From NCBI RefSeq assembly GCF_001888165.1, contig NZ_CP015455.1, forward strand, positions 2,474,001 through 2,538,000: 64,000 bases of DNA, given 5' to 3'. Shown piece after piece: positions 5,603 through 32,059 of this stretch. The stretch is from Syntrophotalea acetylenica (GTDB lineage: Bacteria > Desulfobacterota > Desulfuromonadia > Desulfuromonadales > Syntrophotaleaceae). The notes under the pieces were generated by a model that searched no databases, was not told where the DNA came from, and saw nothing but the letters and a program-made list of their open reading frames with translations. The position numbers and the translations under genes are program-made. Each line of letters starts with the position of its first letter. The stretch's first letter is position 1.

Positions 5603-6951
5603 GATTTTGAACTCAGCATTTCGGTAATCACTTCCACACCTTCTTGTAATTCATCGCCCAAAATCTCGGTGTAGCGGCCATTGGTGGCGCCAGCTTTCAC
5701 CTGTACCGACACAGCCTGTCCGTCACGCAACACCCAGACACGCTGCAAGCCGTTTTGCGTGCCTGCCGACCCTTGGGATTTTTGTGTCGGACGGGGCGGA
5801 CGCGGTATCAGTGACCCGACCAGCCCCCGGCCCGACGATTTGGCCGGCGCGGCTTCCGAGGGACTGAAGCGCAGCGCGGCATTCGGCACCAGCAGGGCAT
5901 CCTTGCGCGTGACGGTAGTGATCACGGCTGTAGCGGTCATGCCCGGGCGCAGAATAAGATCATTATTGTCAACCTGCAGTACCGCGGGATAAGAAATAAC
6001 CCCATCGTCGTCGGCCGCGTTGAACCCGACCCGGGTAATCGTCGCCTCAAAGGTTCTGCCCGGCCAGGCATCGACGGTGAAGCGGGCCTTGAGCCCCGCT
6101 TTCACCTGACCGACATCCGCTTCATCCACATCCACCTCCAGTTCCATCTGGGAAAGATCCTCGGCCAGGGTGAACAGCGTCACCGCCTGCAGTGAAGCCG
6201 CCACCGCCTGCCCCGGATCGACCGCCCGCTCCAGCACCACGCCGTCGATGGGCGAGCGGATATGCGCCTTATCGAGATTCGTTTCATCGCTGCGCAATGC
6301 GGCCTTGGCCTCGGCGATGCTCGCCCGGGCACTCGCCAGATTGGCCTGGGCGCGGGAATATTCGGCCTCGGCGGTTTCCATCTCGGTGCTGGACGGCACC
6401 TTGCCATTGGATAAATCCCTGACCTTCCGGTATCGCTGGAGTTTGAGGCGCGTTTCCTCGACCGTGGCGCCAGCCTGTTGCAGACTTGCTTCGGCGGCCT
6501 GCACCGTTGCTCTTGATTTGGCGACGGCATCCTCGAACTTCGAAAGATCGAGTACCGCCAACACCTGGCCTTTGCTGACCCGATCATCGTCATCGACGTA
6601 CACTGCGTCGATAGTGCCGGACATTTCGCTGCCGACTTCCACCTTGTTGGTCGGCTCGAGATTTCCTGTAGCCGTTACCGTCACAATCAGGGTGTCGCGG
6701 GCCACCTTTTCAACCAGATAGCGCGGCTCTCCGCTGTCACCGCTGCCCCGCAGCAGAAAATAACCGGCTACCAGCAACAGAACCGGCAACATGACCAGGG
6801 CCCAGCGCCAGCGGCGCCTGCCGCCGCGCTTTTCAGCGGAAAGAAGCGTTTCGAATGCGATTTCGGACGTGTTGTCATTGGGGGGGAGATATCGTTCATG
6901 ACGCGTTCCTGGTGTCTTCGGGTTGGGAGTTAGGCGACCAGCCACCGCCAA
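5599..6951 (-). CDS. MacA/HlyD-type periplasmic adaptor; start disrupted by a C7 tract
   Basis: The frame encodes an RND/MacA-type membrane fusion protein: a single N-terminal helix (RRRWRWALVMLPVLLLVAGYF), a lipoyl-like half-motif, a coiled-coil hairpin, a second lipoyl half and a beta-barrel domain. It links the inner-membrane pump to the TolC-like channel. The start is problematic. The expected ATG at 6899 has a good AGGA site and overlaps the upstream stop as ATGA, like every other junction of this operon, but it is out of frame. A run of seven C (complement of 6880-6886) lies just downstream, and one extra C would restore the frame. As given, only a TTG at 6951 or GTG at 6945 opens the frame, overlapping the tolC-like gene by about 50 bases. 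The explanation is a sequencing error, a real frameshift or slippage-based phase variation. Confidence 0.85.
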   Translation of the reverse strand: MAVAGRLTPNPKTPGTRHERYLPPNDNTSEIAFETLLSAEKRGGRRRWRWALVMLPVLLLVAGYFLLRGSGDSGEPRYLVEKVARDTLIVTVTATGNLEPTNKVEVGSEMSGTIDAVYVDDDDRVSKGQVLAVLDLSKFEDAVAKSRATVQAAEASLQQAGATVEETRLKLQRYRKVRDLSNGKVPSSTEMETAEAEYSRAQANLASARASIAEAKAALRSDETNLDKAHIRSPIDGVVLERAVDPGQAVAASLQAVTLFTLAEDLSQMELEVDVDEADVGQVKAGLKARFTVDAWPGRTFEATITRVGFNAADDDGVISYPAVLQVDNNDLILRPGMTATAVITTVTRKDALLVPNAALRFSPSEAAPAKSSGRGLVGSLIPRPPRPTQKSQGSAGTQNGLQRVWVLRDGQAVSVQVKAGATNGRYTEILGDELQEGVEVITEMLSSKS

Positions 6952-12570: not shown

Positions 12571-14055
12571 TTATTGTTTTTTGACTTTGTAGACTTGGCG
12601 GGGTCCGGCGGGCTTTTGCCTCTCTGGCAGGTGGATTCTGGCGATATTGTCGCCGTTTTCGTTGCGGGGGAATCGATAAGTGATCAGGGCGTAGGTCGGG
12701 AAGATCCTGATCTGCGCAATGAGTGAGGCGATGACTTCGCGCTGTTCGGCCTGGTAAAGATGGTCGAAGGCCTGCCGGGTGATCTTGAGAGCGTCCCAGT
12801 CGGGGGCGATGGCTTGTGCGGAAAGGAGCCCGGCACGTTTTTGATTAAGGGTCCCGATGGTGTTGTCGATCTCATTTCTTTTTTGGCGGACGTCTGCGGG
12901 GCTGAGCAGGCCGTCGGCGACGGCTTCTACGAGGCGCTGTTTTTTGGTGTGACACTTTTCGATTTCGCGATCGATGTCGGCGAGTTTGCCGGGTGTGTCA
13001 TCCGAATCTTGTCTGGCCTCCCATGCTCGCTGCAGTTCGGCGGCTTTTGACAGAAGGCCAAACAGGTTGGTCAATACTCTCTCCTCGAGGATGTGGGTCG
13101 GGATCATGCGGCTCTGGCATGCGTCGCTTTTGTCTTTGTGCCGGCAACCGTAGTAATCGAGGCGGGTTCCGTCGACGCGGGTGCGGCCGTTTTTCCATGC
13201 GCGGTAGGAGTGTCCGCAATATCCGCAGGTGAGGATATCGAGATTGCTGAGCATGGCGGCGTATTGTCTGCGCGGGGCTTTGCGGCGGCTGCCGCGGTTG
13301 CGGCGAATCCGCTCTGCTTGTAAGTGGTCGATAACGGCGGGCCATTGCCCGTCGATAGTGGCCCCGGAGTCGGGATCGCGGCGGGCGCCTTGATACATCA
13401 GGAGCCGATCGTCGCTGATCGCCCGGCGCACGGTAACGGATGGTATCCCTACCCTGTCGGCGACTTGGGATGCGGGGTAGAGTTCGGCCAGGCGCATCAT
13501 CTTGCGAAAGGTCGGCATTTGATCGGGATCGACGATTAGCCCTCCGGCCCCGCGGTCGTATTTGTAGGGCATTGGTGGGTTTCCGGACAGCCATTTCCCG
13601 GCGCGGTAGGCTTCTGCCCTGCCCTCGGCCATCCTCGCCTGCAATACCTTCATTTCTACGCTGGAGAAACCGCCCTCCATGAGAAGTAGCATCCAGTCGC
13701 TATGTTGGGATGGGTCCAGCTGGCGTGATGGTGTGGCGAGTTTTACACCGTGTTGTGAGCACAGGTACAACCAGGAGACGTAATCTTGCAGACTATCATC
13801 GCGGCTCAGGCGCGATAGCTCGATGACCAGGATCAGGTTGATCTTTCCGGATCGCACGTCGCTCTCAAGGCGGGCGCGTTCGTGCAGTTCTTCGACCTTG
13901 CCGCGGGCCGCACTGGCGTGGCCGTCGTCGTAGATTTCAACCTGCCAGCCTTGGGCCAGGGCATATGCTGGCAACTGCTCGCGCTGGACGGTGAGCCGGT
14001 GGGAGGGTTTATTTTTATCTTCGCGGGATTTTCGGATATAGACTGCTGCGATCAT
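12571..14055 (-). CDS. Large serine recombinase (phage integrase)
   Basis: A 494-residue site-specific recombinase. The N-terminal resolvase domain has the catalytic serine in AVYIRKSRED (Ser 9) and the LSRLSRD helix (about residues 81-87). A recombinase domain follows (about 150-260, with GNPPMPYKYDRG), then a zinc ribbon (CGYCGHSYRAW near 290 with the second cysteine pair YYGCRHK and DAC), a coiled coil, and a C-terminal domain. It should integrate and excise the prophage at the tRNA-Thr site next to it. Last gene of the leftward unit, 12 bases after the upstream gene. Serine integrases more often target protein genes, so the tRNA 5' end is a notable target. Confidence 0.95.
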   Translation of the reverse strand: MIAAVYIRKSREDKNKPSHRLTVQREQLPAYALAQGWQVEIYDDGHASAARGKVEELHERARLESDVRSGKINLILVIELSRLSRDDSLQDYVSWLYLCSQHGVKLATPSRQLDPSQHSDWMLLLMEGGFSSVEMKVLQARMAEGRAEAYRAGKWLSGNPPMPYKYDRGAGGLIVDPDQMPTFRKMMRLAELYPASQVADRVGIPSVTVRRAISDDRLLMYQGARRDPDSGATIDGQWPAVIDHLQAERIRRNRGSRRKAPRRQYAAMLSNLDILTCGYCGHSYRAWKNGRTRVDGTRLDYYGCRHKDKSDACQSRMIPTHILEERVLTNLFGLLSKAAELQRAWEARQDSDDTPGKLADIDREIEKCHTKKQRLVEAVADGLLSPADVRQKRNEIDNTIGTLNQKRAGLLSAQAIAPDWDALKITRQAFDHLYQAEQREVIASLIAQIRIFPTYALITYRFPRNENGDNIARIHLPERQKPAGPRQVYKVKKQ

Positions 14056-20886: not shown

Positions 20887-21321
20887 ATGGCGCAATTTCG
20901 GGAGGTTGCAAATAGCGAAGGGCTGCAGGGGCCTGTCAGTTGGTTGCCCGATGATGTGGTGGCTGAATTGTCGGCCCGGTTTTTTGACGCGGACACCTGC
21001 ACGGACTGGTTCCTGGGCCGCTGTTATCCCGACGGGCCGGAGTGTCCTCGCTGCGGCGCGCCGATCACCGGCGAGCGGGCATTGGCGCGCTGGCGGGCGT
21101 TGCAGCGCCTGACCTGTCCGCATTGCGGCCGCAAAGTCAAGGCGACCACGGGGACCCTGCTCCAGGAAGCCCGCATCGATCCTCGCCAGCTATTTATCGC
21201 CCTGTCCATGCTCGGCCTCGGCGCCGATCCGGCGGCCATCGCCCGCATTGTTGGCGTCACCCCCGCGACGGTGTTGACCTGGCGTGACAAGGTCCGCGCC
21301 CTGGCGGAGGTCTGCCAGTGA
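20887..21321 (+). CDS. Transposase-type zinc ribbon plus helix-turn-helix protein
   Basis: A 144-residue protein: CPRCGAPITG and CPHCGRKVKATTGT form a zinc ribbon (about residues 55-90), followed by a helix-turn-helix (DPAAIARIVGVTPATVLTWR). This is the N-terminal DNA-binding layout of IS1 InsA and IS1595-type transposases, but no catalytic domain follows. It probably is a domesticated DNA-binding protein used in phage replication or regulation. The stop overlaps the primase GTG start (GTGA). Confidence 0.65.
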   Translation: MAQFREVANSEGLQGPVSWLPDDVVAELSARFFDADTCTDWFLGRCYPDGPECPRCGAPITGERALARWRALQRLTCPHCGRKVKATTGTLLQEARIDPRQLFIALSMLGLGADPAAIARIVGVTPATVLTWRDKVRALAEVCQ

Positions 21322-23024
21322 CCGACCCACAAAACAAAGTGGTCGATCTGGCCGCCCAGGTCGAAGAACGCCTCCGGCAGGAAGCCGCCGAACTCGCGGC
21401 GGCAGAGCCGAAAAAAGACGAGGCCCCGCCGGCAACTGGCGGACCCGACGACCCACGATTTATTATGCGGTGCCTGGCAAACAACGAGCGTGGCGACGGG
21501 ATACTGTTCACCGCGCTGCAGCGGGACCAGTACGTCTACAACAAAACAAATGGCCTGTGGTACCAGTGGGAAGGTCACCACTGGAGCATCGATAAGCTCA
21601 ACCGCGCCACAACAGCCGTCGAGAGCGTTGCGGTCAAATATCTCGACGAGGCGGCAAAACTCCGGGCGGAGGTCGACGCATTGTCTTCCGACATGGCCGC
21701 CGCGGAAGAAAAAGCCGAAAATTGTCGCACGGCCAAGGACGAATCCGGGGCCCGAAAGGCCACGGCACTAGCTGGCCAACTCGCCGTACAGATCGATCGC
21801 GTCAACTCCAAGCTCAAAAACCTCAAAAAGCGGGTTGAGCGCCTGCGCAGTGTGCGCGGCGCCGCCAACTGCCTCACCTGGGCCCACTGCGTCGAGCAAC
21901 CACTCGCCATCGTCGGCGACGAAATTGACAAAAAACCGATGCTGCTGGCCTGCAAAAATGGCGTCATCGACCTTGAAACCGGCCGGCTATACCCAGGCAA
22001 TCCCAGCGACTACCTGGTGCGCGCCATCCCCGTCGAGTATCACGGCATCGATTGCGTCAACCAGGACTGGGAAAAATTCCAGAGGGAGATCCACGGGGAG
22101 GAAAACACCCTGGTCGATTTCGTGCGGCGCTATTTTGGGTACAGCATCACCGGCCTGACCACGGAACAGTACCTGTCAACCTTCATCGGCGAGGGCGCTA
22201 ACGGCAAGGGAACGATGTTCGAAACGCTCCACGAAGTTCTCGGGGAGCTCGCCTGGTCCATTGACCCCGAGATGATCCTCGAGCAAAAAAACGCTAAAAG
22301 CTCCGCCGGGCCCTCGCCAGATATCATATCGCTCTACGGGCGAAGGCTGGTCGTTGCCTCCGAGACAGAACAACATCGCCGCATCAGCGGAGCCAAAGTT
22401 AAACGCCTGACCGGCTCCGACACCCTCACCGGCCGGGCGCCCCACGACAAATACGAGGTCAACTTTACGCCGACGCACACCCTGGCCCTGGTGACCAACC
22501 ACGCACCCAAAGGGCTGGCAGCCGACTTCGCGCTGTTTCGGCGGCTGCTCTACCTCGAATATCCGCTGCGCTACGTGGCCGATCCCGCGCTCGAAGCCCG
22601 CAGCGATCCCCAAAACGCGGCTATATATCGTCAGCGAGACCCCGATCTGCCGCGACGACTGCTCGCCAATCAACCCGGGATCCTCGCCTGGCTGGTGCGC
22701 GGCTGCCTCGAATGGCAGCGCGACGGTCTCAAGCCCCCCGACAAACTACGCGCCGCCGCCGAAGCGATCCGCCGCAACGAGGACCATCTCGCACGGTTCA
22801 TCGAAGAATCCTGCCGCCGCATCGACAACGACAGTCGGCTACTGTTCAAGCTCTTTTACGGCAAATTTGAGGAGTGGTTCGCCGAAAATGTGGACGAGGA
22901 AAAACGCTACAAGCCAACCAAGAAATCCATCGCCGACCAGTTGCGCCGCAAGGGCTATCAAGTCGAAAACACCGGGGGGCAGACCTACGTCTACGGTCTC
23001 GACGTCGAAGGCCTGCTGGCATGA
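21318..23024 (+). CDS. D5-type phage primase/helicase (SF3 ATPase)
   Basis: A 568-residue replication ATPase. An N-terminal region with a coiled coil (about 110-177) is followed by the D5_N domain (NGVIDLETGRLYPGNPSDYL near 214) and a superfamily-3 helicase core: Walker A GEGANGKGT (291-299), Walker B and motif C region with VVASETEQ and ALVTNHAP. A C-terminal winged-helix primase domain follows. It should open and unwind the phage origin. Starts at GTG 21318 overlapping the previous stop. With the TOPRIM primase downstream it forms the replication module, with a repeat-rich intergenic region between them. Confidence 0.9.
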   Translation: MTDPQNKVVDLAAQVEERLRQEAAELAAAEPKKDEAPPATGGPDDPRFIMRCLANNERGDGILFTALQRDQYVYNKTNGLWYQWEGHHWSIDKLNRATTAVESVAVKYLDEAAKLRAEVDALSSDMAAAEEKAENCRTAKDESGARKATALAGQLAVQIDRVNSKLKNLKKRVERLRSVRGAANCLTWAHCVEQPLAIVGDEIDKKPMLLACKNGVIDLETGRLYPGNPSDYLVRAIPVEYHGIDCVNQDWEKFQREIHGEENTLVDFVRRYFGYSITGLTTEQYLSTFIGEGANGKGTMFETLHEVLGELAWSIDPEMILEQKNAKSSAGPSPDIISLYGRRLVVASETEQHRRISGAKVKRLTGSDTLTGRAPHDKYEVNFTPTHTLALVTNHAPKGLAADFALFRRLLYLEYPLRYVADPALEARSDPQNAAIYRQRDPDLPRRLLANQPGILAWLVRGCLEWQRDGLKPPDKLRAAAEAIRRNEDHLARFIEESCRRIDNDSRLLFKLFYGKFEEWFAENVDEEKRYKPTKKSIADQLRRKGYQVENTGGQTYVYGLDVEGLLA

Positions 23025-23378: not shown

Positions 23379-24758
23379 ATGACTGTCCTTGATCTCGCAC
23401 AGAACCGCATCGCCGGGTTGAAAAAGAAAACCGCCAAAGAATGGGCCGGCCCCTGTCCTGCTTGTGGTGGCACTGACCGGTTTGTTGTTTGGACCGACCG
23501 CGACGCCTGGTATTGCCGCGGTTGCGCCAAGGGCGGCGACGCCATTGAATTTTTGCGTATGACCGAGGGCCTCTCCTGCCCCGACGCCCACGAGGCCCTC
23601 GGTCTGCCCTGTAGTGCCGCCTGCTGTCCGGCCCGCGAAAAATGCCGACTGGGCGATGGCAAGCCTGGGGCCGCGCCTCGCGACCCGATGTTGTCCACCC
23701 CGGCCATCAAACAACCACCCCGCCAGGACTGGCAGCCCTCCGCCGCTACGCAACCCGCCGATGCATGGGCTCAAAAAGCCGAAAAACTGACCGAATGGGC
23801 TCATCAGCAACTACTAGGCAACGAGATCCAGCTGGACTACCTGGCCGCCAGGGGCCTGCCGGCCGCTGCCGTCCGACGCTTCCGGCTGGGCTACGTGCCG
23901 GCCGATCTGTATCGCGAGCGGGCCGCATGGGGGCTGCCCGCCGAAACCAGCGACCGCACCGGCAAGCCTAAAAAACTCTGGATACCCCAGGGCCTCCTGA
24001 TCCCGTTTATGGCCGACGGCATCATCCATCGCATCCGGATCCGGCGCCACAAGGCCGACGGCACCCAGCCGCGCTATTACTGGTTGCCGGGCAGCGGTAA
24101 CGATGTTGTCATCATCAACCCCAGCGCCCGGGCATTTGTCGTGGTGGAATCCGACCTCGACGCGCTCGCGGTCGTCCATGCCACCGGCGACCTGATCGGC
24201 GGTGTCCCCCTGGGCACCTGCAGCGCCAGACCCAAAACCCACGCCGACGAGGTCCTCGGTCGTGCCCTGTGTATCCTGGTGGCCCTCGATGTCGACCAGG
24301 CCGGCACTAAAAACTGGCCATGGTGGCGCGACCATTACGCCCGCGCCGACCGCTGGCCCGTACCCGCCGGCAAGGATCCCGGCGACTACGTCAAAGACCA
24401 CGGCGGCGATCTGCGCGCCTGGGTCGAGGCCGGCCTGCGCAAACTCTGCCCGGCCTTCGCCCTCCCGACACCGGGCCCCGCCTCAAATCACGTAGAAAAA
24501 CCGGAACCGCCTGCCGAAAACTTCCCGCACCACCACAAAGGCATCAGCGCCGGCGGCTACCCATTCGTCATCGCCCACCACGCCGATCATGTCGACGCCC
24601 TGGTGCAGATGTACCCGGATATTCCGGTGTTTTCGCCCGCCGAGATCAAAGCTCTGGAAGGGATGACCAAACAAGAAGCCGAAAAAGTGCTGCGGGCCAA
24701 ACAGATCTTCGGGCCGGGCACGCAAGTATTGGGGACCAAGCCGATCCCCAAAATCTAA
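23379..24758 (+). CDS. DnaG-like primase with CHC2 zinc finger and TOPRIM domain
   Basis: A 459-residue protein. The N-terminal zinc finger has CPAC (26-29) and CRGC (46-49) around DRFVVWTDRDAWY. A DnaG-type core follows (YLAARGLPAAAVRRFRLGYV), then TOPRIM with VVVESDLDALAV near 255 and the second acidic motif ALDVDQAGTKNW near 304. It should make RNA primers for phage replication. It follows the candidate origin and the D5-type helicase. The start ATG 23379 has only a weak site (GGCTGGAT). Confidence 0.9.
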   Translation: MTVLDLAQNRIAGLKKKTAKEWAGPCPACGGTDRFVVWTDRDAWYCRGCAKGGDAIEFLRMTEGLSCPDAHEALGLPCSAACCPAREKCRLGDGKPGAAPRDPMLSTPAIKQPPRQDWQPSAATQPADAWAQKAEKLTEWAHQQLLGNEIQLDYLAARGLPAAAVRRFRLGYVPADLYRERAAWGLPAETSDRTGKPKKLWIPQGLLIPFMADGIIHRIRIRRHKADGTQPRYYWLPGSGNDVVIINPSARAFVVVESDLDALAVVHATGDLIGGVPLGTCSARPKTHADEVLGRALCILVALDVDQAGTKNWPWWRDHYARADRWPVPAGKDPGDYVKDHGGDLRAWVEAGLRKLCPAFALPTPGPASNHVEKPEPPAENFPHHHKGISAGGYPFVIAHHADHVDALVQMYPDIPVFSPAEIKALEGMTKQEAEKVLRAKQIFGPGTQVLGTKPIPKI

Positions 24759-25237: not shown

Positions 25238-25971
25238 CCTGCGCAACCCCCGATCAGCAGCCAGGCCGCGCCAACTGCCCCAACTGCGGCGGCCACCTGG
25301 CCAACATCGGCAGCGGCCTGCGCGAATGCGAACAATGCGGCTTTCTGGCTAAAAATAACCCACAAGAGGACACACAAACCATGCAGATTGACACCCGTGA
25401 ACCGTCACCGCAAAACCCCGCCGCCACGCCGCAACCGATGCCCACCGCCGGCCGCCGCGACGTGCTGCCCGAGGTCATCGCCGACCTGCAGTCCCGCGAC
25501 GCACTCGGCCGCCAAAAATACGGCACCACCCTGCAGACCCATAACGGTCGCGATCCGCTGATGGACGCCTACCAGGAGCAGCTCGATCACTGTATGTACC
25601 TCAAGCAAGCGCTCATGGAGCGAGGCACTCCCGAGGTTGTCTACAACTGGCCCGCGGTCAAGTTTTCCCAGACCAACAGCCAGGCCGACCAGTTCGCGCA
25701 CATCCTCAGCGAGATCGACGAAATCAACGAGATCGGCCCGTTTTTTGGCCCACTGCTGCATATGGAGCTCGCCGATCTGCACCACAGTATCGAGACCTAC
25801 TGGCGCATCGCTGCCAAACGCTACGGCCAGGAGCACATCGACGCAATCTTTCAAGCCGTCGAGAACAAAAACCGCGCCCGCGGTTACTATGACATCGCCA
25901 CAGAGGCCGCACCGTGCCCCGGCCTCGACGGTCCCTATGGGCACATGCCCTACGGAGGAGGTGCGGAATGA
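25231..25971 (+). CDS. Zinc ribbon plus MazG-like nucleotide pyrophosphohydrolase-type protein
   Basis: A 246-residue protein. Residues 16-37 form a zinc ribbon (CPNCGG, CEQCG). Residues about 78-130 (VIADLQSRDALGRQKYGTTL, DAYQEQLDHCMYLKQAL) match a common phage domain related to MazG-like pyrophosphatases. A second helical segment with SEIDEINE and HMELADLHHSIE gives the acidic ExxE/ExxD pattern of all-alpha NTP pyrophosphatases. It may clean the nucleotide pool and feeds logically into ThyX, whose start overlaps its stop. The assignment to MazG-like is moderate. Confidence 0.6.
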   Translation: MLTCATPDQQPGRANCPNCGGHLANIGSGLRECEQCGFLAKNNPQEDTQTMQIDTREPSPQNPAATPQPMPTAGRRDVLPEVIADLQSRDALGRQKYGTTLQTHNGRDPLMDAYQEQLDHCMYLKQALMERGTPEVVYNWPAVKFSQTNSQADQFAHILSEIDEINEIGPFFGPLLHMELADLHHSIETYWRIAAKRYGQEHIDAIFQAVENKNRARGYYDIATEAAPCPGLDGPYGHMPYGGGAE

Positions 25972-26651
25972 TCCTGGTCACGCCATCGGTCGAGGTCCTA
26001 CACATCACAGAACGTCCCCTGCACCTCATCGAGGCCGCCGGGCGCACCTGCTACAAAAGCCAAGCCCATCCGATCACCATCACCACCGCCGGCCAGTTCG
26101 CGCAGATGCTGGTCCGGCGTGGCCACGAGTCGGTCCTCGAACACGCCCACGCCACCCTGCGCATCGTCTGCGATCGCGGCGTGTCCCACGAGATCGTCCG
26201 CCACCGTCTGGCCAGCTACAGCCAGGAGAGCACCCGGTATTGCGATTACACCAGAGGTCACGTGACATTTATCATCCCGCCGTGGGTGGATGTTGATCCT
26301 GACGTTGTCGATATGACTGTTCCGGACGCCGATGCGGGGCTAGCCCTCTTGGCGCAGCAGCCGCAGGATTATGGCTGGCTGCTGGCGTGCTCTTATGCGG
26401 AGCAAACGTATCGATCCCTGCGCCAGGACGGATGGACGCCCGAGCAGGCCCGCACCGTGCTGCCCAACAGCCTCAAAACCGAGATTGTCATGACGGCCAA
26501 CCTGCGCCAGTGGCGGCATTTTTTTACGTTGCGCACCGCCCCGGCGGCCCATCCCCAGATGCGCGAGTTGGCCGACTTGGCCCTGGCCGCCCTGCGCGAG
26601 CAAATCCCCGTAGTGTTTGACGACATCGAGGCCGGCCATGGCTCCCGATGA
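25968..26651 (+). CDS. thyX: FAD-dependent thymidylate synthase
   Basis: A 227-residue protein with the ThyX signature RHRLASYSQESTR (78-90) and the upstream HESVLEH motif (53-59). ThyX makes dTMP from dUMP using methylenetetrahydrofolate, NADPH and FAD. In phages it supplies thymine for DNA replication. The C-terminal region (NSLKTEIVMTANLRQWRHFF) also matches the family. ATG 25968 overlaps the previous stop. No key motif appears to be missing. Confidence 0.95.
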   Translation: MILVTPSVEVLHITERPLHLIEAAGRTCYKSQAHPITITTAGQFAQMLVRRGHESVLEHAHATLRIVCDRGVSHEIVRHRLASYSQESTRYCDYTRGHVTFIIPPWVDVDPDVVDMTVPDADAGLALLAQQPQDYGWLLACSYAEQTYRSLRQDGWTPEQARTVLPNSLKTEIVMTANLRQWRHFFTLRTAPAAHPQMRELADLALAALREQIPVVFDDIEAGHGSR

Positions 26652-27061: not shown

Positions 27062-27356
27062 ACATAACGACCCGACCATGGCCGCAAACATGCTCGAACG
27101 CGTCGAGGCCACCCAAACGGCGCTGCGGAAAATAATTGCCACCCTGGTCGATCTGATGGAGCGATCCGATATGGAAGAATTCGGCGAAGCGTGCCAGCCG
27201 GTCACGAATGGCGAATGGTTCGGCGCCATCGAGGAGGCAAAGGCCGTTATAGCCTCCGCACCAAAAACCAAAAAGATCGGGTTCAGATGCATATATTGCG
27301 GCCAGGAGTTTTCGACAGTGGAGGCGTGCAATGTCTGCGAAAAAAGCCACCTGTAA
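27054..27356 (+). CDS. Phage protein with C-terminal zinc finger, 100 aa
   Basis: Residues 1-75 are helical (MLERVEATQTALRKIIATLV); the end has RCIYCGQEFSTVEACNVCEK with CxxC and CxxC in a zinc-finger spacing. The stop lies 26 bases inside the next gene. Confidence 0.55.
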   Translation: MNKHNDPTMAANMLERVEATQTALRKIIATLVDLMERSDMEEFGEACQPVTNGEWFGAIEEAKAVIASAPKTKKIGFRCIYCGQEFSTVEACNVCEKSHL

Positions 27357-27813
27357 ATCCGTTGGGGGAGACCCGTGGCCCTATGTTGGTCCCATCGCCC
27401 GCGCCGACGGCGAGGGGCCGTACAACATGTTTCTTTTGCCCCTGCCCGGTGATAGTTGGTGGGCCAATTACGAACTGGGCACCCGTATTGATCCCCGCTG
27501 GCATTTTGATGTCGTGGCGCTGGCCGACGGTCGGTTTTCCACGGTAGGCCAGGTGACGGCCATCGAGAGAGGGACGGACAGCCACGGCCGTCAGGTGGTA
27601 TTCCCTGACCGGATTGCCGCGGTTCGTGCCGCCTGCGCCCGCATGATTCGGCAGGCCCGTGACTCCCGAGATTGGGGACCGATGAGCGGGAAGTTAGAAG
27701 GGGCCCTGCTGGCCATGGTCATCAACTGGGCCCGCGACGTCGTCGCACGGGAATCCGGTAGGCCGCGCCCGAGGTCGGCGAAGGTCGCCGAACCCGCACC
27801 AACGACGGCATAA
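27331..27813 (+). CDS. Phage protein, 160 aa
   Basis: The central part (DSWWANYELGTRIDPRWHFD, VVALADGRFSTVGQVTAIER) is globular and conserved-looking, followed by a helical tail. I do not recognise the family. The TAA stop (27811-27813) lies inside the GCATAAC box of the first attC-like site, so this gene borders the cassette-like stretch. It overlaps the upstream gene, so it is probably phage backbone, not cassette cargo. Confidence 0.55.
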   Translation: MSAKKATCKSVGGDPWPYVGPIARADGEGPYNMFLLPLPGDSWWANYELGTRIDPRWHFDVVALADGRFSTVGQVTAIERGTDSHGRQVVFPDRIAAVRAACARMIRQARDSRDWGPMSGKLEGALLAMVINWARDVVARESGRPRPRSAKVAEPAPTTA

Positions 27814-27856
27814 CGCTTGAACTCAGCGGGCGGGCCGATTGAATGATTGGTTATCT
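27808..27856 (-). repeat. attC-like site a
   Basis: Outer boxes GCATAAC (27808-27814) and GTTATCT (27850-27856) enclose TTGAACTCAGCGGGCG and TTGAATGATTG arms. Read on the minus strand, GCTGAGTTCAAGC followed by GTTATGC matches the L'-R' end of integron attC sites such as that of aadA (GCTTAACTCAAGC then GTTAGAT). At 49 bases it is shorter than usual, with almost no central loop. The extra unpaired base lies in the arm expected for minus-strand polarity. Confidence 0.6.
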
Positions 27857-27868
27857 GTGGAGGTCAAT

Positions 27869-28336
27869 ATGAATTTAATCAAACAACCGAACCATTGGAC
27901 CTGTGCCGCAGCTTGCGTATGCATGTTGACCGGCACCACGTTGGAAGAGTTCTACGTATACTGCGGGCACGATGGATCGGAAGACGTGCAACCGACGAAA
28001 AAGCGCCCGTTCGGCAAGAGATGCTTTTCATGCCGAGAATTGTATGGCTACCTGCTCAGCCATGACATGACTATCGGCTGGGGATGTGTGCCCGGGGAGG
28101 GTTTTGACCCCAGAACGCAGACTCTCAGCGTAGACCTGGAGCGTTTACCCGCATTGGTCGATGTCATGTCTGTTCGGCCCGATGTCGTTCATTGCGTGCT
28201 CTGGGATGGGAAAAGGATTATTGATCCACACTTCCCGGAAAACAAACTCATGCCGGACGATTACACCGTGATCGGATGGTGGCCCGTGACGAAGTTATGG
28301 CCGGACGATTTGATGCCTTTGCGGCAAAAGCCTTAG
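27869..28336 (+). CDS. C39-like papain-fold cysteine peptidase, cassette-borne
   Basis: A 155-residue protein with QPNHWTCAAACVCMLTG at residues 5-21, matching the catalytic Cys helix of C39-like peptidases (QxxxxxCxxAxxxM), and VVHCVLWDGKRIIDPH near 108-123 carrying the His and Asp-Pro motif. It lacks a signal peptide. ATG 27869 is chosen for the GGAGGTCAAT site. It lies between attC-like sites a and b, and its TAG stop (28334-28336) falls in the first box of site b. Base composition seems lower in GC than neighbours. Target unknown; candidates are self-peptides, toxins or host defence proteins. Confidence 0.7.
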   Translation: MNLIKQPNHWTCAAACVCMLTGTTLEEFYVYCGHDGSEDVQPTKKRPFGKRCFSCRELYGYLLSHDMTIGWGCVPGEGFDPRTQTLSVDLERLPALVDVMSVRPDVVHCVLWDGKRIIDPHFPENKLMPDDYTVIGWWPVTKLWPDDLMPLRQKP

Positions 28337-28382
28337 AACGTTGGAATTAAGCGGCGGACCCGGCGCGAAGAGTGATTTTTCA
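28333..28382 (-). repeat. attC-like site b, decayed
   Basis: TTAGAAC (28333-28339), then TTGGAATTAAGCGGCGGACC, a GC-rich centre, and GAAGAGTGATTTTTC. On the minus strand GCTTAATTCCAAC then GTTCTAA matches the same L'-R' pattern as sites a, c and d with changes in the core box. It abuts site c directly. Probably an inactive attC. Confidence 0.45.
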
Positions 28383-28470
28383 GCATAACAACTTGAACTC
28401 AGCGGGCGAGCCGATGCGGACGGCTCGAAGAACCCCGCTTATCCCCGTCCGCTGGAGTGATTGGTTATGC
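28383..28470 (-). repeat. attC-like site c, best preserved
   Basis: This 88-base imperfect palindrome has perfect outer boxes GCATAAC (28383-28389) and GTTATGC (28464-28470). Its inner L boxes pair as ACTCAGCGGGCG with CGTCCGCT-G-GAGT, that is 12 pairs (one wobble) plus one extrahelical G. Unpaired spacers lie between R and L boxes, and a variable terminal structure carries its own CGAGCC/GGCTCG hairpin. This is the full architecture of a folded integron attC. The unpaired base position and homology to aadA attC both put its top strand on minus. Confidence 0.7.
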
Positions 28471-28733
28471 CATACAAACCATGCCGATTTGATCGAAAAG
28501 ACTACCTGTCCGACGCCCAGTCATTCGAGGCCGGAAACATTGCCAATGCAGAGACGGAGTTGTGCGAGTTTAACGAGGACGCGGAAGACCTCGCGTTCGA
28601 ATTGGCGTACACCAGGTACAGAGTTGCAATACTCGAACAATTCATCAAAAACGCGACCGAGCTTGGATATATAACCGTGCCGGATCAGCCAGATCCAGCC
28701 CGGCAAATGATATTCGAGATTTTAAAGGCATAA
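28467..28733 (+). CDS. Small cassette ORF, 88 aa, bounded by attC-like sites
   Basis: The ATG (28467) lies inside the GTTATGC box of site c, with GGAG at 28454-28457 inside its L arm as a ribosome site. The TAA (28731-28733) lies inside the GCATAAC box of site d. The protein is acidic and helical (ETELCEFNEDAEDLAFELAY, RVAILEQFIKNATELGYIT). Function unknown. Such exact fit between the ORF and both sites is what a gene cassette would look like, although the ORF runs opposite to the inferred attC polarity. Confidence 0.6.
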   Translation: MPYKPCRFDRKDYLSDAQSFEAGNIANAETELCEFNEDAEDLAFELAYTRYRVAILEQFIKNATELGYITVPDQPDPARQMIFEILKA

Positions 28734-28754
28734 CGAGTGAATTAAACGGCGCTC
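28728..28754 (-). repeat. attC-like site d, half site
   Basis: GCATAAC (28728-28734) followed by GAGTGAATTAAACGGCGCTC. On the minus strand this is GTTTAATTCACTC then GTTATGC, again the L'-R' end pattern. No matching second half is seen before the next gene, so the site is truncated. Confidence 0.45.
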
Positions 28755-28772: not shown

Positions 28773-28970
28773 ATGAAGAAACCGAATTGCATCATCGCTG
28801 GGGACACAAAGATCGAAGTCAACGAGGACGAATACGAGGATTTTCCTGACCTGCTGATTATCCAGTGCCACGACCGGGAGCAGATACGCCAGGCGATCAG
28901 GACGGGAAAAATTGAGTTCACCATTTTCGGTGGCGAACCGCAAAACCCCGTAATAGGAACTTTTCGGTAA
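28773..28970 (+). CDS. Small acidic protein, 65 aa
   Basis: ATG 28773 with GGAGAAACG. KKPNCIIAGDTKIEVNEDEY and LLIIQCHDREQIRQAIRTGK read as a small alpha/beta protein. It lies just after half-site d and may be part of the cassette stretch, or phage backbone. AT content appears higher than in the terminase genes. Function unknown. Confidence 0.5.
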   Translation: MKKPNCIIAGDTKIEVNEDEYEDFPDLLIIQCHDREQIRQAIRTGKIEFTIFGGEPQNPVIGTFR

Positions 28971-28998: not shown

Positions 28999-29382
28999 AT
29001 GACCCCAACGAAACCAGCCATGCCAACAACGCAACTCGGATTATTTGAAACCACAACCGCGCCGCAGGACAAAGGGTCCGCCATCGCGCGGCACAAACAC
29101 CTGTGGCGTGTCTGCTGGGGGTGGGATGGTCCAGCGGTCGGCGGATATTGCGAGGTCAACCAGCTCTGCGCCGATCTCGCCACACCTGCCGCCGGCGGGC
29201 CGTCCTGCATCTACGCCTACATGGAGCGCTGCAAAATATTGCAGCAACTGGACGATGATCACTGGCTCTGCGAAATCGCCATGGGTATCGTCCACGGCCA
29301 GCCGTGGGACAAAGACGGCACCCGCGTCATACTGGACACCCTGAACATCTGGCCGCCAACCAGGGACCTGCGCAGGAGATAG
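28999..29382 (+). CDS. Phage protein, 127 aa
   Basis: The centre (HKHLWRVCWGWDGPAVGGYC, IYAYMERCKILQQLDDDHWL) is well formed; no family recognised. ATG 28999 or ATG 29020 are possible starts; neither has a clear ribosome site. It ends three bases before the small-terminase-like gene. Confidence 0.55.
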   Translation: MTPTKPAMPTTQLGLFETTTAPQDKGSAIARHKHLWRVCWGWDGPAVGGYCEVNQLCADLATPAAGGPSCIYAYMERCKILQQLDDDHWLCEIAMGIVHGQPWDKDGTRVILDTLNIWPPTRDLRRR

Positions 29383-29384
29383 AC

Positions 29385-30128
29385 ATGTTCCAACGCGTAC
29401 AACAACTGATCCAGGTCGCCGCCCAGCACGACAAAATCGAGCTGGGCACCCTGCACAACGCCGTCATCCAGTGCATGCAGGAGTATCGCGACGCCAGCAC
29501 CGCCGCCAACAAACGCAACTGGGACGCCGCCAAATCCGGCCTGCAGGAGTGCCTCGACCGGCTCTGGCCGGTGTATTTCCCCTCCGAAGAGGCGTCAGTG
29601 GATCCCGAAAGGTTTGACCAGCAAAAGGCCGCCCGCGATTACCTGCTGAATAAAGGCTACAAAGTCAGTGCCGGCAAGTTTTCAACGGACTGGAACAACG
29701 GTAAGGTAAGGGTCCAACGCGATGGGAGTGTGCGGAGGGCCGATCTGCTCGAATATGCCACGACCCTTGACCTCGACCGGAAAAAGATCGCCAACATGGA
29801 GCATCTCGAGCGCCGCAAGGCCGAACTCGAAGTGCAAAAGCTCGAACAGCAGGTCAAAAAAAGCGATCTGGAAAATCGCAAAGAGGATGCCCGCTGGGTG
29901 CGTAAGGAAGACGCCGAAATTCAAACTGCCACGCTGGTCGGATTGCTGCAGGATTCCCTCAACCACCACCTGTCCCAACATCAGGCCCAACTACTGCATG
30001 CCTGTGGTGGCGATCACGGCCGCGTCGCTGAATTCGCCCAAGCGCTTGAGGACGTCGTGGCTGGCGCGTTTAACGAGCTGGCCAACGGCAGACAGTTCGA
30101 TGTCGACATCGAGGAGGATGAGGAATGA
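29385..30128 (+). CDS. Terminase small subunit-like protein
   Basis: A 247-residue protein. Residues about 65-125 (FDQQKAARDYLLNKGYKVSA, GSVRRADLLEYATTLDLDRK) resemble the Nu1-type winged-helix, followed by a long coiled coil (about 130-185) and an acidic C-terminus. That order and its position, overlapping the large terminase start by ATGA, fit a small terminase that recognises the packaging site. Family assignment is from layout and context. Confidence 0.65.
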   Translation: MFQRVQQLIQVAAQHDKIELGTLHNAVIQCMQEYRDASTAANKRNWDAAKSGLQECLDRLWPVYFPSEEASVDPERFDQQKAARDYLLNKGYKVSAGKFSTDWNNGKVRVQRDGSVRRADLLEYATTLDLDRKKIANMEHLERRKAELEVQKLEQQVKKSDLENRKEDARWVRKEDAEIQTATLVGLLQDSLNHHLSQHQAQLLHACGGDHGRVAEFAQALEDVVAGAFNELANGRQFDVDIEEDEE

Positions 30129-32059
30129 GTCAAGGCCGGGACCTCAACACTCAAGGCGCCCTTCTGCCCGACAGAATTCTTAGCCGGTCGACCGTCGCTC
30201 GCTACCTGCGATCTGAGCTGATAGGCCGCATTCCCGATCGGATTCAACTGTGCATCACGGCTGCAGTGCGGCATCGCCTGCGGCGGCCCGAACGGATGCC
30301 GGTCAGCCAATGGTGCGAAGCCTACCGCATCATGCCGTCGGCCGATGCCATGCCAGGCAAGTGGCGGCGTGAGCTGGCACCGCACGCCGTGCGTGTCATG
30401 GATACCTGGGCCCTGCCCTGGGTGCGCGAAGTATGGTTTTGCGGCCCTGACCAGGCGAGTAAAACCAACGCCATGCTCGGCTGTATGGGCTACAGCATCG
30501 ACCGGGCCCCGGGCAACATCTTTTACACTATGCCCAGCCAAGATGCAGCCAAAAGGATTTTGGGGCAAAAACTGATCCCCATGCTGCAGCTCACCCGTCC
30601 CCTGGCCAAGTTGATCAGTAAGCGCGCCGACGACACCTCACAAGGCATGATCCGCATGGCCAACGGCGTCGCCATCTATCCGGCCTGGGCCAACTCAGCC
30701 ACGTCAACAGCAACGTTTTCGGCCAAATATACATTCAATGATGAGGTCGATAAGTGGGAGATGGTCGGTACTGAGACCGACCCCATCCGTCGCCTGCGCA
30801 AACGCGCCAAAAAATATCGTTTTCACAAGCACTTTTTCGGAAGCACCCCAGCCGGCAAATACATCTACTCTGGGGCCATGGCTTGTCAGCAGGTACAACA
30901 GTATGCTAACCGCTGCCCCCATTGCGGTGAACTGATCATTATGGATACCGATCATATCATCATCCCGAAAGGCGCAAGCGTCGATGATATCAAGCGAGAT
31001 CCCGGCGCGATTGGCTATGCCTGCAATTCGTGCGGTTCCCTGTGGAATGAGGCCGACCGCTCGCGATCATTTGAACAGGGGGACTGGATCATCGTTAAGG
31101 GGCCCGACTGTCACAGACCTGTCGATGTCGGGTTTTTGCTCAGCGGTATCGCCACGCCCGACATGAAGCTGGCCGACATCGCCTGCACCATTGTCCAGGC
31201 TGAGGCCGGTGACCTTTCCGCCAAGCGCGACCTAGCCCACGGCATCCAGTGCATCGACTATGAACCCGAAACCACCGCTGCCCGTGAAGACGACCACCTG
31301 CTGCGCTATCGCTCCGGCCTGCCGCGCAACGCCGTGCCGCTCGGTACCGCCATGCTCGGACTGCTGGCGGATACCCAGCAGGATAGTTTTTACTATGAGT
31401 TGTGGGCCTACGGATACGCGCCGGAGATCGACATGCGTATGATTCGACACGGCATCCTGCCGAGCTTCGTCGACCTGGAATACCTGCTCCACCAGGAGGT
31501 GTTCGCCGATGCCGATGGTAAAGAGTTCCGCGTACAGATCGGCTTGATCGACTCCGGAGGCACGCGCAAGGGATGGCAAAAACACAGCCGCACCGTCGAG
31601 GTGTACGACTGGTGCAGCAAGCATCGCATCATGATCCCGATCAAGGGCATCTGGTCGCGCCGAGATGGAGATATGATCAGTTACAAAACCGTCGAGACCT
31701 TTCCAGGCACCAGTAAGCGCATCCCTGGCGGCCTAGTGCGCGCTAACCTCAAGGTCGACTACTTCAAAGACGAACTGGCCAGACGCCTGGCCATCGAGCC
31801 GGACGACCCCGGCGCGCCGCTGTACCACGACGATATCGACGAAGCCTTTGCCAAGCACTACACCGCCGAGGTCAAAGACGAAGAGAGCGGCGAGTGGAAA
31901 CACGACAAAAAGAAAGGCCGGAACGACTTTTGGGATTGCAACGTGTACGCTATTGCCCTACGCGAGATACTCAAGACGCGGATCCCAAGGCGACCGGACG
32001 ATCCTGCCAATGTCGCGCCGCAGCGGCGCATCTATTCCAAAGGAGCGCACCGTGACTGA
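30125..32059 (+). CDS. Terminase large subunit, GpA family
   Basis: A 644-residue packaging motor. Walker A-like GPDQASKTN at 107-115, Walker B-like TFNDEVDKW near 203, a zinc knuckle (CPHCGELI and CNSCGSLW), and a C-terminal nuclease with IGLIDSGGT near 471 are those of the lambda GpA family. It cuts and translocates phage DNA into the prohead. The length matches lambda gpA (641). First of the head genes, following the small subunit. Confidence 0.95.
   Translation: MSQGRDLNTQGALLPDRILSRSTVARYLRSELIGRIPDRIQLCITAAVRHRLRRPERMPVSQWCEAYRIMPSADAMPGKWRRELAPHAVRVMDTWALPWVREVWFCGPDQASKTNAMLGCMGYSIDRAPGNIFYTMPSQDAAKRILGQKLIPMLQLTRPLAKLISKRADDTSQGMIRMANGVAIYPAWANSATSTATFSAKYTFNDEVDKWEMVGTETDPIRRLRKRAKKYRFHKHFFGSTPAGKYIYSGAMACQQVQQYANRCPHCGELIIMDTDHIIIPKGASVDDIKRDPGAIGYACNSCGSLWNEADRSRSFEQGDWIIVKGPDCHRPVDVGFLLSGIATPDMKLADIACTIVQAEAGDLSAKRDLAHGIQCIDYEPETTAAREDDHLLRYRSGLPRNAVPLGTAMLGLLADTQQDSFYYELWAYGYAPEIDMRMIRHGILPSFVDLEYLLHQEVFADADGKEFRVQIGLIDSGGTRKGWQKHSRTVEVYDWCSKHRIMIPIKGIWSRRDGDMISYKTVETFPGTSKRIPGGLVRANLKVDYFKDELARRLAIEPDDPGAPLYHDDIDEAFAKHYTAEVKDEESGEWKHDKKKGRNDFWDCNVYAIALREILKTRIPRRPDDPANVAPQRRIYSKGAHRD

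Follow-up and report, generated by a model that had tools for sequence, protein, structure and literature searches.

The window, i.e. the whole stretch of 64,000 nucleotides of Syntrophotalea acetylenica analysed here, holds a prophage. PHROG matches reveal an integrase/invertase (12571-14055), a primase, a portal protein, a head protease and a tape measure protein, and Pfam a terminase. Between the replication genes and the terminase lies a series of small genes separated by boxes GCATAAC and GTTATGC, and the gene order is primase, attC array, terS, terL, with no integrase among them. No integron integrase gene (intI) was found in the window; the best tblastn match between primB and terS has an E-value of 0.31. 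Features are collected in Table 1.

Table 1. Genes and recombination-site features between the replication genes and the terminase of the prophage. R1 and R2 are covariance models of attC sites; L049 and L075 are loci of related genomes, described below.
Feature	Position	Strand	Basis
primA, primase/helicase-type replication gene, left landmark of the module	21318-23024	+	PHROG primase 7.2e-80; 59% identical homolog in L049
primB, zinc-finger primase gene	23379-24758	+	Pfam Zn_ribbon_DnaG 3e-08; 42% identical homolog in L049
ORF160, cassette-type gene, stop in R'' of site a	27331-27813	+	60% identical over 143 aa to L075 cassette gene
attC site a	27808-27856	+	R'' GCATAAC, R' GTTATCT; R1 31.5 bits, E 1.4e-5; R2 29.7 bits, E 9.4e-5
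ORF155, second cassette gene, stop TAG in half-site b	27869-28336	+	own start behind GGAGG; SD -10.0 kcal/mol
half-site b, R''-L'' alone	28333-28357	+	likeness to d judged by eye
attC site c	28383-28470	+	R'' GCATAAC, R' GTTATGC; R1 49.4 bits, E 3.7e-10; R2 50.3 bits, E 1.2e-9
GGAG in L' arm of site c, likely Shine-Dalgarno of ORF88	28454-28457	+	sequence; -5.9 kcal/mol with anti-SD
R' box GTTATGC of site c, crossover after G	28464-28470	+	read directly in the sequence; holds the ORF88 ATG, 28467-28469
ORF88, third cassette gene, 88 codons from the R' of c to the R'' of d	28467-28733	+	
half-site d, R''-L'' alone	28728-28752	+	sequence
ORF65, no family found	28773-28970	+	ORF list; Pfam and PHROG searched
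ORF127, no family found	28999-29382	+	ORF list; Pfam and PHROG searched
terS, terminase small subunit-like	29385-30128	+	PHROG 6.4e-4; 51% identical to its L049 homolog, which immediately follows intI
terL, terminase large subunit, GpA type	30125-32059	+	Pfam GpA_ATPase 1.9e-42, GpA_nuclease 1.6e-32

ORF155, which the ORF list begins at TTG 27839, has a single weak PHROG match (E 0.009, to a family of unknown function) and no relative in Pfam, phage records or viral contigs; by eye, its product (27869-28333) looks like small cysteine-peptidase-like proteins. ORF160 has no match in phage records and, searched as a single sequence, none in viral contigs; a single-sequence search with the terS of the window found no relatives in viral contigs either. 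A weak second terS-like match elsewhere in the same genome (C1:2338786-2339034) suggests another prophage. Upstream of the array, a thyX-type thymidylate synthase gene is present at 25914-26651, and the L015 phage, which carries an ORF88 homolog, has a thyX nearby too (44% identity).

attC sites and cassette boundaries

Candidate sites were scored with two covariance models. R1 was built from 17 sites, none from the window, originating from Luteimonas, Pseudoxanthomonas, two MAGs and three viral contigs, and R2 from 24 phage sites. By R1, after sites c and a, the next other place in the window reaches 10.4 bits, and site c has a clear strand preference, with 49.4 bits against 13.1 on its opposite strand; R2 also ranks c, then a, first, again well ahead of any other place. 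Both sites have the R''/R' and L''/L' inverted repeats in correct order and strand, and they share 23 of the 24 bases that follow the box. Half-sites b and d match neither R1 nor R2, and are not complete attC sites, their second half being absent. The original prediction, whose coordinates for box, ORF and stops proved exact base for base, had treated all four, a to d, as recombination sites; the two models bear this out for a and c, and b and d are reduced to R''-L'' halves. Counted over the whole window, the box GTTATGC shows no enrichment (7 copies against 5.3 expected); four of the copies lie inside 927 bp, a clustering reached in none of 300 first-order Markov simulations.

Among the 24 phage sites, 11 of the 12 L''/L' pairs have changed on both sides, and 95.7% of the cells pair, which none of 500 shuffles equalled; in both cases the alignment had been fitted to the model, which favours such figures. 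Other searches were blank: Rfam at gathering threshold returned one tRNA and nothing else over the whole window, and blastn of site c against plasmids gave chance matches only (E about 2). Sites a and c are separated by 526 bases with no intI nearby, which is the arrangement (at least two close attC sites, no intI) defining a CALIN. As judged from sequence, integron attC sites are truly present at a and c, where recombination is predicted, and the segment 27331-28752 is, on the same grounds, a small integrase-less attC cassette array (CALIN) in a prophage.

Cassette boundaries follow a simple rule. In 28 of 35 neighbouring pairs, R' and the next R'' are complementary at the four variable bases, versus a mean of 1.4 and a maximum of 7 in 2000 shuffles, and R'' and R' of one same site never match at all four bases (0/47). 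The ORF88 cassette obeys this rule: its 5' end, TTATGC, is exactly complementary to its own R'' box, GCATAAC, in half-site d. At its 3' end, half-site d stands in place of a complete attC. The 5' end of the ORF155 cassette does not match half-site b (GTTATCT versus GTTCTAA), and ORF160 has no cassette 5' end in the window; its relative in L075 is a complete cassette, running from TTATGC to GCATAAC with the stop in the box, in an array that has an intI. At two other loci, L094 and L101, 236 bp of a 326-bp cassette are common at 100% identity, behind attC sites that are 88% identical, and the remainder is missing from L094, a pattern such as exchange plus loss would give.

Integrases beside the terminase in related phages

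The terS protein was searched in 277 genomes of the class and matched in 18, the own genome included; the five genomes of the own genus gave no match. Among the 17 others, 12 have a match to TIGR02249 over its cut-off somewhere in the genome, and 6 (G132, G037, G251, G030, G194 and G257) have an IntI within 4 kb of terS and on the same strand; the G194 match is partial and below the cut-off, the other five being over it. IntI precedes terS with gaps of 48 to 604 nt in all of these except G257, in which it is located between terS and terL. The remaining 11 genomes have no IntI within 4 kb of terS.

In L049 (G132) and L075 (G037), the order is primA, primB, attC array, IntI, terS. The window, L049/L089 and L075 have homologous flanking genes in common, with the array between primase and terminase in each. 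In L054 (G030), primA, primB, IntI, terS and terL are consecutive, and the best attC match, at 16.2 bits, is not a confident one. Four loci (L050, L051, L052 and L080) have attC sites upstream of terS like the window, and no IntI match in the stretch read; L084 has its sole attC downstream of a weak terS match. A complete integron, with intI beside the array, is present in relatives such as L049, L075 and L096-L099, and absent from the window. An attI-like left end was sought across the loci and none is shared; that of the L075 array has no match at any other locus.

Viral contigs extend these observations. A search of IMG/VR, whose contigs are predicted viral and may in some cases be bacterial, with the L049 IntI gave 17 loci, among them the near-copies L092/L093 and L103/L104, and L101 and L105, which hold only part of IntI. 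At 14 of the 17, terS or terL lies downstream (13 by tblastn, L101 by a PHROG terminase match). A profile search with nine IntI sequences then yielded 429 relatives, of which the best 80, chosen by likeness to the phage IntI, were kept. Among these best 80 of 429, a homolog of the terS or terL queries lies within 2.5 kb in 18 of the 71 loci having at least 1.5 kb downstream, and 9 of these 18 are contigs of the first set. PHROG matches of 20 downstream ORFs at other loci comprised terminase large subunit (6), phage integrase (4), methyltransferase (3), and primase, ParB-like, HNH, tail sheath and endolysin (1 each), with one family of unknown function and one ORF without match.

The position of attC sites relative to intI was counted with R2, at E-values up to 0.001, at 68 loci; the remaining 12 of the 80 are contigs searched separately. 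Nearly all of the 106 sites (100) are upstream of intI on the same strand and none is upstream on the opposite strand; the exceptions are one site downstream on the same strand and five downstream on the opposite strand. At least one upstream attC is present at 35 of the 68 loci. L100 and the phage record L106 each have one site downstream of IntI. Two viral contigs have long arrays: L026 (9978-13824) contains eleven consecutive attC matches, accompanied by small genes and an ORF resembling a methyltransferase, and L101 (1262-6535) nine attC sites followed by an integrase fragment of 182 codons and a terminase large subunit gene.

We then placed the phage integrases on a tree of 30 out of 42 IntI hits, after removal of duplicates, near-copies, fragments and one weak hit; the partial L059 and L077 were kept. 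Twelve phage IntI form one clade (supports 96/98) and three more a second one (100/100), in a tree whose deep branches are weak and in which L106 has a long branch. The phage label requires 3 changes on the tree, against 9.1 when shuffled (0 of 500 shuffles as low); "phage" here covers the viral-contig and phage loci used, among them L099, L100, L102 and L106, loci where no terminase is shown, and "chromosomal" means only that the gene is not next to a terS match. G037 and G030 each have a second IntI besides the phage one, at a separate place in the tree. Conserved columns include R (30/30), H (30/30), R (30/30), H (29/30) and Y (29/29), the catalytic set of tyrosine recombinases.

Translation signals of ORF88 and of other cassettes

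The original prediction held that ORF88 takes its start codon from one box and its stop codon from the next, with the GGAG of site c as ribosome-binding site. This last role is likely, given the pairing energy of -5.9 kcal/mol and a position nine bases ahead of the ATG. An in-frame TGA (28458-28460) leaves TTG 28461 and ATG 28467 as first possible starts, and since GGAG sits only 3 nt from the TTG, ATG 28467 is the sensible one. The R' junction is described as 5'-G↓TTRRRY-3' in the relevant passage of Qi et al. (2023, PMC9892861). With the crossover between G and TTATGC, the ATG belongs to the cassette of ORF88 itself, and the Shine-Dalgarno alone would be borrowed; the start codon is thus not lent by the upstream box. 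The stop does lie in an attC-like box as predicted (TAA 28731-28733 within GCATAAC 28728-28734), which is the R'' box of ORF88's own cassette. The ribosome-binding site of ORF88 is therefore probably borrowed from the preceding attC, c.

Homologs of ORF88 are found in two phages, L015 (51% identity over residues 8-58) and PPpW-3 (ORF45, 41% over residues 33-85). Homologs starting well away from the box had been named as evidence against the predicted start; the L015 homolog, the sole one covering the N-terminal part, starts close by, three residues nearer the FDR motif that they share. It has no attC, so that the gene also lives outside cassettes. Behind the homolog, L015 has an almost perfect hairpin (6550-6611), possibly a terminator, whose arms contain ATAAC and GTTAT. 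Among 244 genomes of the class, ORF88 was found in its own genome only (1/244), as was the own attC pattern.

ORF88 may on the other hand be hardly translated from the box, or not at all, if the array is decaying and the ATG of R' is there as a side effect of the CATAAC form. The halved sites b and d suggest such decay, and in the predicted mRNA fold the attC hairpin keeps the AUG largely base-paired, with an unpaired probability of 0.03-0.10, the four GGAG bases being free at 0.44, 0.39, 0.17 and 0.08. Opening the start region would cost 11.3 kcal/mol, above 8 and below 4 of 12 other prophage genes (2.6 to 17.2). Against this, the phage homologs jointly cover residues 8-85, an in-frame stop lies just upstream of the start, and the Shine-Dalgarno energy is the strongest among the sites with an ATG in the box; the next one, -5.7, belongs to a two-codon frame. 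The scarcity of open box-ATG frames in relatives (below) adds to the case for little or no translation from the box, which we nevertheless regard as somewhat unlikely.

To what extent boxes supply such codons was surveyed at 53 attC sites outside the window, in arrays of related phages, taking the longest ORF in front of each. The stop of the upstream ORF is inside R'' at 29 of 53 sites, before R'' at 15 and inside the attC at 1, and 8 sites have no upstream ORF of 40 codons. As R'' usually spells NNNTAAC, a frame that reaches it would stop there by chance about one time in three; the observed 29/45 exceeds this, in a count that the choice of the longest ORF biases. In the window, the neighbours of ORF88 do likewise, as had been noted: TAA 27811-27813 is in GCATAAC 27808-27814 and TAG 28334-28336 in TTAGAAC 28333-28339. 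An ATG in R' is present at 8 of the 53 sites and opens at least 60 codons at 2 of them (L089 and L080); L089 also offers a start further in, preceded by GGAGG. At 23 of the 53 sites, the downstream ORF begins 8-60 nt into its cassette and has a Shine-Dalgarno energy of -5 kcal/mol or lower.

Three other viral arrays (20 sites) have 9 stops in R'' and 11 box ATGs, 4 of which open at least 60 codons; the 6 sites of the host integron have 1 stop in R'' and no box ATG. In L018-L023, 6 of the 15 box ATGs listed by a regular-expression scan, which left out sites with more than 2 box mismatches, open 84-135 codons. R'' thus often provides a stop, and R' seldom provides a start in these phages, though it does so in other arrays. 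The expected sharing of codons with boxes is common for stops and rare for usable starts, and the idea that any ORF-only cassette inserted in this way would be translated was overstated. The translation signals supplied by attC sites are many stops and, for ORF88, probably the ribosome-binding site, and not the start codon in the sense first meant.

Origin of the array and known integrons

The window array is quite probably a CALIN that remains from a phage-lineage integron, at a fixed place between replication genes and terminase. Comparison of sequences gives the attC sites, the gene order, the homologies and the covariation in relatives on which this view is built. Because neither intI nor a convincing remnant of it is seen in the window, its loss there is something we infer. 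Other points that speak against this view are the 5' ends of ORF155 and ORF160, the ORF88 homolog of L015 with no attC, the exceptions to the array-before-intI layout, the pairing of the ORF88 AUG in the predicted mRNA, and the search for attI, which gave no site.

A fuller scenario, towards which we lean with some reserve, is that of a tailed-phage lineage with a resident integron of reversed layout, in which cassettes are followed by a co-directional intI abutting the terminase. With such a layout, the phage transcript would replace the integron promoter, and IntI would be inherited with the phage, swapping small accessory genes between phages. The window would be an integrase-less descendant, with one cassette relying on its neighbour's attC for ribosome binding. 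In the first and more probable view, some relatives keep the complete form, primA, primB, cassettes with attC, intI and terS on one strand. The integrase, acting on folded attC sites, would have exchanged cassettes, which would be expressed from the phage transcript. Each cassette begins with the TT of an R' box and ends with the G that precedes the following crossover, which makes its 5' end complementary to its own R'' box. An R'' of the form NNNTAAC contains a TAA that can end the gene, and the CATAAC form imposes GTTATG at the other end of the cassette, hence an ATG. ORF88 would use this ATG without a leader of its own, the ribosome-binding site coming from the L' arm of whichever attC precedes.

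Another possible source of the cassettes is the host, in a phage without an integron of its own. The host chromosome has a complete intI (485 bits) and an attC array 262 kb from the window array, and seven of its sites score 40-50 bits by R2, equal to site c and better than a. Site type thus does not separate a phage from a host source. By R1 the best host site reaches 44.6 bits and four others score lower, 15-25 bits, which would speak against a host origin, though R2 gives no such difference. What makes this origin unlikely is that relatives of the prophage carry intI in the same phage interval, and that the ORF160 family is a cassette in one such phage integron (L075).

The own genome was also scanned with R1, scoring 150 of 2,605 first-look candidates. 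At least 4 sites were obtained: c, a, one beside the host integron, and a stray one at C1:518967-519069. Near the latter (L033, 868-1506), a lone GNAT-like gene has its TAA inside the TCATAAC of an attC-like site, which scores 28.3 bits, is placed by the model on the other strand, and is perhaps a single stray cassette. Around the host integron (C1:2793692-2812807, L010 and L011), the intact intI has attC sites by R2 on either side, and a piece of another, broken intI is present at 2812421-2812807. A strict attC pattern gave no match in the own genome; this is uninformative, since its RYYYAAC cannot fit the box GCATAAC.

It is highly improbable that the repeats are phage terminators or regulatory hairpins carrying GCATAAC and GTTATGC by chance, as the incompleteness of b and d and the hairpin behind the L015 homolog might suggest, given the R1 and R2 scores, the strand preference of c, the covariation in relatives, the cassette boundary matches and the company of intI.

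Integrons in phages are already published. Qi et al. (2023) report 3 complete integrons, one In0 and 17 CALINs in 10,705 genomes, and five of six attC sites tested from virulent phages recombined with IntI1 (PMC9892861). Their phage attC arrays without integrase are like that of the window; one of them, the CALIN of Shewanella prophage M16-3, has tail, scaffold and terminase genes around it. The sections of that paper on phage arrays differ from the present observations: they describe neither a position ahead of the terminase common to several phages, nor an array that precedes intI, nor a clade of phage IntI. In the published CALIN phage TJE1, R1 finds two weak matches (26.9 and 23.0 bits). 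In the literature covered, which includes few subscription journals and no preprints, no account turned up of a phage lineage whose intI precedes the terminase.

Atypical Treponema integrons, as far as the corresponding parts of their description go (PMC3607928), have array genes co-oriented with intI as in these phages, and in T. phagedenis an intI-less remnant at a syntenic place, like the window. They differ in being chromosomal, with genes between intI and a transposase, and not an array leading into intI and terminase.

According to the relevant sections of a review (PMC8876359), about 20% of cassettes have no proper TIR; TIR-deficient cassettes are helped by ORF-11 of attI1, and attC hairpins lower downstream translation (PMC8876359, PMC4670013). 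ORF88 is similarly without its own initiation signals and dependent on a neighbour. The help comes, in the cases covered by these sections, from a short ORF in attI1 or attC, and for ORF88 it would come from the GGAG of the preceding attC together with the R' ATG.

Should phages maintain integrons of their own, cassette capture would not be solely a bacterial or plasmid trait, and phage accessory genes and bacterial cassettes would have one exchange pool in common. The reversed layout suggests a way of expressing cassettes without the integron promoter. The original point survives in a smaller form: a cassette can be leaderless if the attC next to it provides for ribosome binding. The larger one concerns the place of the window array, at which some related phages keep a whole integron.

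How genes become cassettes is, to our knowledge, an open question, and the ORF88 family, with attC in the window and without it in L015, offers a place to study it. The Luteimonas and Pseudoxanthomonas attC arrays (L018-L020 and L023) have the same GCATAAC/GTTATGC boxes as the window; they differ in being bacterial, and their box-ATG frames are known as open frames alone.
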